A DNA stretch of 41,413 nt from a virus, in the IMG/VR virus record IMGVR_UViG_3300036785_001382, positions 1-41,413 of that record; one strand, given 5' to 3'. Each line of letters begins with the position of its first letter. The first letter of the stretch is position 1. Under the pieces are notes generated by a model. The model searched no databases and was not told the origin of the DNA. It was given only the letters and a program-made list of their open reading frames with translations. A program made the position numbers and the translations under genes. Positions 23,415 through 39,431 of the stretch are shown in pieces.

Positions 23415-23663
23415 ATGAAAGTTAAAGCACTTGTACCGATTTTGTTCGGTAGCCGGGTGGTCAATGACGGTGAGTTATTCGAGACGCAGGATCTGCACGG
23501 TCGCGAGCTGATCAAAAAAGGTTATGCCGAGCTGGTGGATGAAGATAATCCTGCAGAGCAGCCAGAGCAGCCAGAGCAGCCAGAGCAGCCAGAGCAGCCA
23601 GAGCAGCCAGAGCAGCCAGAGCAGCCAGAGCAGCCAGAAGCAGGCAAGAAAACCAAAAAGTAA
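23415..23663 (+). CDS. Small protein after capsid with a (PEQ)n tail
   Basis: An 82-aa protein. The first 45 residues (MKVKALVPILFGSRVVNDGELFETQDLHGRELIKKGYAELV) form a small beta-rich unit like short proteins found between capsid and connector genes in HK97-type phages. The rest is a low-complexity acidic tail of nine tandem Glu-Gln-Pro units ending in a Lys-rich KKTKK. The unit count is set by a 9-bp DNA repeat. Possibly a head decoration or connector accessory protein; function not known. Confidence 0.75.
   Translation: MKVKALVPILFGSRVVNDGELFETQDLHGRELIKKGYAELVDEDNPAEQPEQPEQPEQPEQPEQPEQPEQPEQPEAGKKTKK
23555..23635 (+). repeat. 9-bp tandem repeat, nine copies
   Basis: GAGCAGCCA is repeated nine times in tandem without error (81 bp), reading Glu-Gln-Pro each time. 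Identical copies suggest recent slippage, which would change the protein length without breaking the frame. Confidence 0.9.
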
Positions 23664-25132: not shown

Positions 25133-25588
25133 ATGACTGATAAAACCTCGCCAGAGTACGCCATGCTTCCGGCTGGCACGGTTGTGAAATGGGGCGCAGT
25201 CGGTGCCGCCGCCGCTGCCATGAAAGCGCTGACCAACTGTAAGGCAGTCGGTGAGATGGGGCAAACCGGCAGCTTTGTCGATTGCACTACGCTGATCGAC
25301 ACAACCAAGCAATTTATTTCCGATCTGCCCGAGGGGGCTGAAAAATCCATTGGATTTGTCGATAACCCTGCAGATGAAAATTTTGCAGCATTCCTTACCG
25401 CAGCAGATAACCGCGAAACCGTGCAGTTCTATGTTGAGCTGCCGAACGGACGCACCTCCACTTCCATTTTGTCCCTGTCCGGTTGGAAGATGAACGAAAT
25501 TACCGCACCTGCGAGTGAAGTCATCCAGATCACCGTGCAAGGCAAGCAGAACAACAATACCTGGGGAGCCGTGGCCCCAAAGGTGTGA
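25133..25588 (+). CDS. Major tail tube protein
   Basis: A 151-aa tail tube subunit lying between the joining genes and the tail chaperones. It has an N-terminal PEYAMLPAGTVVKW strand and the typical tube segment ENFAAFLTAADNRETVQFYVELPNGRTSTSILSLSGWKMNEITAPASEVIQITVQGK. The end of the reading frame carries the slippery heptamer C-CCA-AAG, so a fraction of subunits would carry the Ig-like domain encoded by the next frame. RBS AGAGAGA upstream. Confidence 0.88.
   Translation: MTDKTSPEYAMLPAGTVVKWGAVGAAAAAMKALTNCKAVGEMGQTGSFVDCTTLIDTTKQFISDLPEGAEKSIGFVDNPADENFAAFLTAADNRETVQFYVELPNGRTSTSILSLSGWKMNEITAPASEVIQITVQGKQNNNTWGAVAPKV
25576..25582 (+). promoter_or_regulatory. Probable -1 frameshift site (C_CCA_AAG) in the tail tube gene
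   Basis: The heptamer CCCAAAG is in frame as C-CCA-AAG, two codons before the tail tube stop TGA at 25586. It fits the X-XXY-YYZ rule for -1 slippage. After slippage the frame continues through GGT GTG ATC into the Ig-like open frame, joining the two parts without a stop. Confidence 0.7.
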
Positions 25589-25848
25589 TCAGCGTGACTA
25601 CCCAGCCGAAAAACGCTGATTTGGCGGTCGGGGGCAATTTGTCCCTGACTGTTGCGGCTACCTCCAGTAACGGCAAGCCCGTTAAATATCAATGGCAGAA
25701 GAACGGCACCGACATTAGCGGCGCCACCGCTGCCACCTATACCAAAAATTCTGTGGTGGCGGCTGATGCCGGTACGTACCGCGTAGTGCTGTCCGCTGAA
25801 CGGACTGACACCATCAACAGCGCTGCAGCCACTGTAACCGTTAAGTAA
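25585..25848 (+). CDS. Ig-like domain, likely C-terminal extension of the tail tube protein
   Basis: An 87-aa frame that reads as a single bacterial Ig-like fold: ISVTTQPKNADLAVGGNLSLTV, the Trp-bearing strand KYQWQKNGTDISGATAATYT and the closing DAGTYRVVLSAE. The annotated GTG at 25585 overlaps the tail tube stop and no good ribosome site stands before it (GGGGAG is 13 nt away). Together with the slippery site this suggests that the domain is mostly made as a frameshifted tail tube extension. Such Ig domains decorate siphovirus tails and may bind surface glycans. Confidence 0.82.
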   Translation: MISVTTQPKNADLAVGGNLSLTVAATSSNGKPVKYQWQKNGTDISGATAATYTKNSVVAADAGTYRVVLSAERTDTINSAAATVTVK

Positions 25849-25857
25849 GGAACTCTG

Positions 25858-26223
25858 ATGACCGAGAAATACGATCTGAAGGCGCTCAAGGCAGCGCTGT
25901 TGAAATCTGATGACCATGTGCTTGAAGTGCCGATGTTTGGCGCGAAAACCTTTATCCGCCGCCTGAAAGCCTCCGAGCTGCAGGATAATGAAGATGGTAT
26001 GAAAGATGCTATCGAAGCCGGTGATATGAATAAGGCTGCACGCCTCAACGTTGAGTTACTGCTTTCCTGTTTTATGACGCCCGACGGCAAGCGCATTCCA
26101 GCCAGCGCGTTACCCAGTGTTGAAGAACTGTTGAAGGCTCACGACAACCCGACACTGGTCGAAGCGATCAGCACCGTCAAACGTCATGCTGTCGGCACGC
26201 TGGAAGACGCGGAAAAAAACTAA
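25858..26223 (+). CDS. Tail assembly chaperone, G-like
   Basis: A 121-aa acidic helical protein before the tape measure gene (MTEKYDLKALKAALLKSDDHVLEVPMFGAKTFIRRLKASELQDNEDG...). This is the position and style of the lambda gpG chaperone that coats the tape measure protein during tail assembly. The frame ends GCG GAA AAA AAC TAA, so ribosomes can slip into the -1 frame to make the longer GT form. RBS AAGGAA upstream. Confidence 0.87.
   Translation: MTEKYDLKALKAALLKSDDHVLEVPMFGAKTFIRRLKASELQDNEDGMKDAIEAGDMNKAARLNVELLLSCFMTPDGKRIPASALPSVEELLKAHDNPTLVEAISTVKRHAVGTLEDAEKN
26214..26220 (+). promoter_or_regulatory. -1 frameshift site (A_AAA_AAC) in the tail chaperone gene
   Basis: AAAAAAC is in frame as A-AAA-AAC immediately before the TAA of the G-like gene. 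It is one of the most efficient slippery heptamers in bacteria. Slippage directs translation into the GT extension, a mechanism conserved across siphoviruses. Confidence 0.88.
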
Positions 26224-26462
26224 CTGACTCGCCCTGGCTGATGCTGATTTTTCAGTTGGCCGATCGTTGGGGTGAGTCTGATCCTCGCAAAATCGCCGCA
26301 TTACCGGCGCAAGTTCTGAATCACTGGCGGGCGTACTTCAAGCTGCAGGGCATTACTGCCGACGCTGTAGAAGAAGCCCCTGTTCATCAACCCGCTCAGC
26401 CTGTGCAAAGTACCCTTGATGCGCAGTGTGCTGACGTAATGCGAGTGCTTGGAAATGGCTGA
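26214..26462 (+). CDS. Frameshifted T part of the G-T tail chaperone
   Basis: The -1 frame after the slippery heptamer reads LTDSPWLMLIFQLADRWGESDPRKIAALPAQVLNHWRAYFKLQG, which has the conserved pattern W-x5-L-x4-W-G-x-D-P-x-x-I-x-x-L-P and W-R-A-Y found in lambda GT-type C-terminal domains. It has no own start with a good ribosome site (an ATG at 26241 lies inside the domain), so expression by frameshift is expected, giving a fusion of about 201 aa. It ends 8 bp into the tape measure gene. Confidence 0.85.
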   Translation, partial: KKLTDSPWLMLIFQLADRWGESDPRKIAALPAQVLNHWRAYFKLQGITADAVEEAPVHQPAQPVQSTLDAQCADVMRVLGNG

Positions 26463-38975: not shown

Positions 38976-39431
38976 TCAGGTGGGCTTTTTGTTGGACATA
39001 TCTTTGGGAATTTCTGCCAAGAACCCACAAGAGTCCCATGAGTTATCCGAAACAACGTACCCCAACTCCTTCAGTCGGCTAAAGGTTAGCTGGAAAACTG
39101 ATTCAAAGTCATCGTCGCTGAGGCCACCAAGGTCCAAATCATTAAGGTCAATGGAGAAGCTTGTGTGCCCGATACGTATCTTTTTGTTTATTTCAGTAAA
39201 TGTTCTTTTGTAGATGACACTAGAGAGTTCTTCTTTCGCTTTATCAACAAGTTGAATTGCATCTTTGGCGGAAATTAATTCATCGGCTGGTATCTCGTTC
39301 AGGAAACTAACGTCCAGTCTCTGGACGATCTCGGCATTCATAGAGCGGCCATTTGCTTTTGCTGAGTCTTCGACTTTTCCCTTTAATTCAATAGGAAGTC
39401 TAATTCGTAATTGCGGGTCTTCTCTGCTCAT
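38976..39431 (-). CDS. Arc-family ribbon-helix-helix repressor
   Basis: A 151-aa protein. Residues 1-45 (MSREDPQLRIRLPIELKGKVEDSAKANGRSMNAEIVQRLDVSF) are an Arc/Mnt ribbon-helix-helix DNA-binding domain with the typical beta strand QLRIRLP and the GRSMNAEIVQRL helix. The C-terminal 100 residues are an acidic effector or oligomerisation part (DLNDLDLGGLSDDDFESVF). It is transcribed away from a second small RHH gene, with two palindromic operators between them, the plan of P22 immI (Arc/Mnt). Probably a lysogenic repressor controlling the antirepressor. Confidence 0.87.
   Translation of the reverse strand: MSREDPQLRIRLPIELKGKVEDSAKANGRSMNAEIVQRLDVSFLNEIPADELISAKDAIQLVDKAKEELSSVIYKRTFTEINKKIRIGHTSFSIDLNDLDLGGLSDDDFESVFQLTFSRLKELGYVVSDNSWDSCGFLAEIPKDMSNKKPT

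Follow-up and report, generated by a model that had tools for sequence, protein, structure and literature searches.

A probable programmed -1 frameshift that joins an Ig-like domain to the tail tube protein of a Serratia-type phage

The tail tube gene and the -1 frame at its end

The window, by which we mean the whole stretch of 41,413 nucleotides analyzed here, comes from a Serratia-type phage. The 3′ end of its tail tube gene combines the following features:

25133..25588, + strand: tail tube (major tail) protein gene with a 0-frame product of 151 aa (Phage_TTP_13; phrog_158; fold match to lambda gpV)
25576..25582, + strand: slippery heptamer C CCA AAG (-1 reading CCC AAA), identified by sequence and shift-prone in E. 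coli (PMC5009743)
25582..25848, + strand: -1 frame extension, Gly followed by an 87-aa Ig-like (I-set type) domain and the stop TAA at 25846-25848 (Ig_3 match; structure model)
25585..25587, + strand: GTG overlapping the stop (GTGA), Val in the fusion or a possible start in a rival reading
25586..25588, + strand: 0-frame stop TGA, identified by sequence
25587..25621, + strand: hairpin 1, arms 25587-25595 and 25613-25621, probable stimulator
25623..25653, + strand: hairpin 2, arms 25623-25636 and 25640-25653, probable part of the stimulator

The 0-frame product matches the Pfam profile Phage_TTP_13 (E 1.8e-64), which in its full length spans residues 11-147 of the 151, as well as the major tail protein family phrog_158. 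It is a complete tail tube protein, and the relatives that lack the Ig domain terminate at about the same position. The tail tube and Ig halves were modeled separately; the best fold match of the tail tube model, which is of low confidence (pLDDT 61), is the lambda gpV tube. A sequence search of the tail tube profile against solved structures yielded no match, and the link to gpV comes from the fold search only.

In the 0 frame, the gene ends ...TGG GGA GCC GTG GCC CCA AAG GTG TGA, with CCA at 25577-25579, AAG at 25580-25582 and GTG at 25583-25585. Thus, C CCA AAG lies in the correct frame, with a single sense codon between it and the stop. The heptamer, with its correct frame and open -1 continuation, fits the X XXY YYZ class, and according to PMC5009743 C_CCA_AAG is very prone to shifting in E. 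coli. No stop interrupts the -1 frame between about 25519 and the TAA, and the extension is identified as an Ig-fold domain by a match to Pfam Ig_3 (E 1.8e-8, above its cut-off) together with a confident structure model (pLDDT 97; TM 0.90 to a solved Ig domain); profile matches of this part include phage tail and decoration proteins. The overlapping GTG lacks a well-spaced ribosome site because on its 5′ side the nearest purine-rich stretch, AAAGG, is separated from it by 1 nt and GGGGAG by 16 nt. The original prediction, made from the letters of this DNA, had listed an in-frame heptamer just before the tail tube stop, a stop-free -1 frame entering an Ig-like domain, and a GTG that overlaps the stop without a well-placed ribosome site; direct reading of the sequence and the Ig_3 match bear out all of these.

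The predicted masses are 15.95 kDa for the 0-frame protein and 24.75 kDa for the 238-aa fusion, in agreement with the 16 and 25 kDa expected beforehand. The predicted junction reads ...GAVAPK-GVISVTTQPK..., and a peptide that spans it would be QNNNTWGAVAPKGVISVTTQPK. Frameshifting and reinitiation at the GTG differ by one peptide, GVISVTTQPK if the domain is fused and MISVTTQPK if it is reinitiated; the Gly codon of the former precedes the GTG. The corresponding peptide of a PY54 fusion would begin AVISVTIQPQ.

On the + strand of the whole window, CCCAAAG occurs once, at the heptamer site and in frame. Both strands together hold two copies (the second at 39002-39008 on the - strand) vs 7.3 expected by shuffling, a rarity that perhaps reflects avoidance of the slippery motif. 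An Rfam search of the region gave no matches, and a promoter scan of the region found no promoters and terminator-like sites no more numerous than expected.

Two further features of the surrounding structural genes deserve mention. A second, probable -1 frameshift site, A AAA AAC at 26214-26220, lies just before the stop of the tail chaperone gene (25858-26223); the shift would enter the frame at 26241-26462 and extend the product to 26462, which is the lambda G/GT arrangement, and the Bacillus phage SPP1 likewise has both tail tube and tail chaperone frameshifts. Furthermore, ten near-perfect copies of a 9-base repeat encoding a Pro-Glu-Gln run occupy 23554-23643, near the end of a small ORF (23415-23663) between the capsid and head-tail adaptor genes.

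Coupling of the slippery heptamer and the Ig domain

Searches with the tail tube protein and with the Ig protein, together with whole genomes, supplied the relatives; loci found via the heptamer search itself were left out of the counts, and removal of duplicates left 113 distinct Phage_TTP_13 3′ regions. An Ig domain is present in 44 of these, in every case preceded by an in-frame C CCA AAG and read in the -1 frame; none of the 113 distinct loci has an Ig domain in frame 0 or +1, and the heptamer is found in only 2 of the 69 Ig-less loci. Conservation of the heptamer in relatives that keep the Ig frame had been set as a test beforehand, and its retention throughout the Ig-bearing set, compared with its rarity elsewhere, supports the central claim that a programmed -1 frameshift fuses the Ig domain to the tail tube protein.

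The nominal Fisher probability of the association is 2e-29, a value not corrected for kinship. On the tail tube tree the Ig label changes four times, with at least two changes forced by well supported branches, so that just two to four tree-independent contrasts are available and a sign test cannot reach 0.05. The heptamer and a -1 Ig domain occur together in three distinct parts of the tail tube tree, among them the Yersinia phages PY54 and vB_YenS-P840 (hereafter P840) and the group of locus L104. The tail tube tree does not distinguish gain from loss of the domain, and the Ig tree does not resolve the three Ig groups.

A stronger argument comes from how the Ig-bearing genes themselves vary in sequence. 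Across the 44 distinct genes, the third base is invariant in only 8 of 137 degenerate codon columns, and the sole run of three such columns consists of the last three codons, CCA, AAG and xxG. The codon that precedes CCA is GCC, GTC, ATC, ACC, CCC or TCC: the encoded residue varies among Ala, Val, Ile, Thr, Pro and Ser, and the third base, which is the first base of the heptamer, is always C. These comparisons indicate that the heptamer and the Ig domain are coupled in evolution, the slippery bases being kept at synonymous positions.

The complementary picture comes from 22 Ig-less Serratia loci, which in the tail tube tree form a well supported clade beside the Ig-bearing Serratia loci and have an ordinary spacer ahead of the tail chaperone gene. 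Their proteins still end in Pro/Ala-Lys-Val-stop, and the exact heptamer is lost in 21 of the 22 (L067 is the exception), replaced by CCG AAG, GCG AAG, CCA AAA, CCG AAA or G CCA AAG. Two of these loci have C CCA AAA, which still matches the general X XXY YYZ pattern.

The downstream hairpins

The region that forms the two hairpins begins 4 nt past the heptamer. When the 75-nt fold was compared with 1000 synonymous recodings, none of the recodings was as stable as the window (z -3.7); the corresponding values in relatives are -4.2 for L012, -2.8 for PY54, -2.2 for P840 and -1.7 for L033. Moreover, in comparisons of Serratia with Yersinia phages, the two use the same codon for 79-84% of their shared amino acids over the first 25 codons of the Ig domain vs 39-42% in its remainder, and both hairpins fall in this stretch of low synonymous change. 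The high local identity could instead stem from recombination. Across 12 sequences, 96% of the cells pair, with weak covariation that is no better than in shuffles. Given this fold stability and codon conservation, we take the two hairpins to be a probable stimulator of slippage in the lineages of Serratia and Yersinia phages.

Not every Ig-bearing lineage has these hairpins, since in the L104 group the z value is only -0.5, with no stronger-than-expected structure, and we accordingly rejected the idea of one stimulatory hairpin common to all Ig-bearing phages. L104 (1911-1995) and its relatives L186-L201 have retained C CCA AAG and GTGATCA but not the hairpin pair; folding predicts another stem there, of longer range and no stronger than expected. 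Nor is the upstream Shine-Dalgarno-like GGGGAG supported as a stimulator under selection: among the Ig-bearing loci its Gly is encoded by GGA, GGT, GGG or GGC, and Trp-Gly is found without the Ig domain too.

Alternative explanations

The most serious competitor of frameshifting is the production of the Ig domain as a separate protein, through termination and reinitiation at the overlapping GTG, that would decorate the particle non-covalently in the manner of Hoc, as PY54 gene 13 is annotated. All 44 Ig-bearing loci share the GTGA overlap, which leaves room for some independent initiation, and the database records of PY54 and P840 show two genes. This reading, however, gives no reason for C CCA AAG, including its initial C, to be kept only alongside the Ig domain; the spacing of both candidate ribosome sites is poor, as described above; the codon is always GTG and never ATG or TTG, which better suits a Val within a fusion than a start; and GTG TGA is also retained in many relatives that lack the Ig domain. 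Reinitiation explains the GTGA overlap only, whereas frameshifting explains the heptamer, its coupling to the Ig domain and the local constraint, and we consider a separate Ig protein improbable.

Two other readings have a negligible probability. The one-base offset of the Ig frame is what an indel would leave, be it a sequencing error or a step in the decay of an unexpressed pseudo-domain, but the frame relation is identical in 44 distinct loci of isolate, prophage and metagenome origin, the intact Ig domain is modeled with a confident fold, and the slippery codons are conserved, so the comparative data already contradict this reading. Nor is it credible that the heptamer persists only because the tail tube protein needs Pro-Lys. 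The Ig-less Serratia relatives do mostly end in Pro-Lys-Val, but they encode the same residues with other codons, and constraint on the protein therefore provides no explanation for the heptamer; in the window CCA accounts for 26% of Pro and AAG for 41% of Lys codons, vs invariable CCA AAG at this site in the Ig-bearing loci. Transcriptional slippage was also rejected, because a C3A3 run is too short for it.

Relation to known systems

Ig domains appended by frameshift to phage tail or capsid proteins are an established kind (PMC5009743, PMC9022992), in line with the premise of the original prediction that siphoviruses can add such domains to structural proteins in this way. The window is another, well supported example of this trick known from other phages.

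The closest counterparts are PY54 (gp12/gp13) and P840, which share with the window the tail tube family (about 70% identity), C CCA AAG, the -1 Ig domain and the downstream hairpins, and differ from it in having one residue fewer before the heptamer and CCG rather than GTG as the last codon. Their records show no annotated frameshift: PY54 gene 13 (L002 1929-2213) and P840 ORF14 (L003 1950-2213) are entered there as head-decoration or tail tube genes of their own, and both have the appearance of a -1 extension of the tail tube gene. PY54 gp12, the nearest named relative, is nevertheless included among I-set tail proteins in a 2022 review (PMC9022992). Given that its 0-frame product has only 150 residues, this suggests that the PY54 frameshift had already been recognized there.

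In SPP1, the tail tube protein gp17.1 and its form with a frameshifted C-terminal Ig-fold domain, gp17.1*, are present in virions at a ratio of ~3:1, and the extension is dispensable (PMC6316719, PMC8718954). Unlike in the window, the SPP1 shift is +1, at CCCUAA, the domain is of the FN3 type and the sequences are unrelated. Frameshifts also extend capsid or tail proteins in the Lactobacillus phage A2, in gene 10 of T3 and in the Listeria phages A118, A500 and PSA, although the proteins and slip sites are different and the shift is +1 in the Listeria tail genes; the A2 and T3 gene 10 extensions are described as Ig-like products of -1 slippage (PMC5009743). Lambda gpV resembles the predicted fusion in being a tail tube protein with a C-terminal Ig-fold domain outside the tube, but there the domain is in frame on every subunit and belongs to Big_2 rather than I-set (PMC8718954). 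Members of another tail tube family, Phage_tail_2, carry a related Ig domain as an in-frame fusion (L226 1501-1764, L096 587-853), which is consistent with domain shuffling.

Proposed mechanism

On the strength of the sequence comparisons, we propose that two tail tube proteins are very probably made from one gene by programmed -1 ribosomal frameshifting. Most ribosomes would terminate at the TGA and release the 151-residue subunit. Others, at the point where tRNA-Pro occupies CCA and tRNA-Lys occupies AAG, would slip one base back onto CCC AAA, probably aided by the two hairpins in the window and in the Yersinia lineage, pass the stop and add Gly and the 87-residue Ig-like domain to yield the 238-residue protein. 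We expect the two forms to be built into the tail tube together, its outer surface displaying the Ig domain, which probably acts as a weak, dispensable cell-surface adhesin. Slippage itself, its efficiency, incorporation into the virion and adhesion are steps that we infer. SPP1 and lambda provide the analogies for a majority of short subunits, a location of the Ig domain outside the tube and weak cell binding (PMC6316719, PMC8718954). For the original suggestion of a decorated minority of subunits, with slippage efficiency setting the extent of decoration, the analogy is the SPP1 ratio (PMC6316719).

A more speculative and rather doubtful extension is that the slip site, the hairpins and the Ig coding sequence move between phages as one recoding cassette that is exchangeable for an ordinary intergenic spacer. 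If so, tail decoration would be gained or lost in one step with the tail tube protein unaltered.

Implications

The phages described here provide an unusually clean comparative case of a structural frameshift, namely one tail tube family with and without the Ig domain, in which the slippery codons are kept or lost in step with the domain while the amino acids barely change. The findings also concern annotation: existing records treat PY54 gene 13 and its relatives as head-decoration or tail genes in their own right, and the evidence favors an extension of the tail tube protein. Given the contrast between members with and without the Ig domain, PY54-like phages would be good test systems for the decoration of a fixed fraction of subunits and for its role in adsorption.
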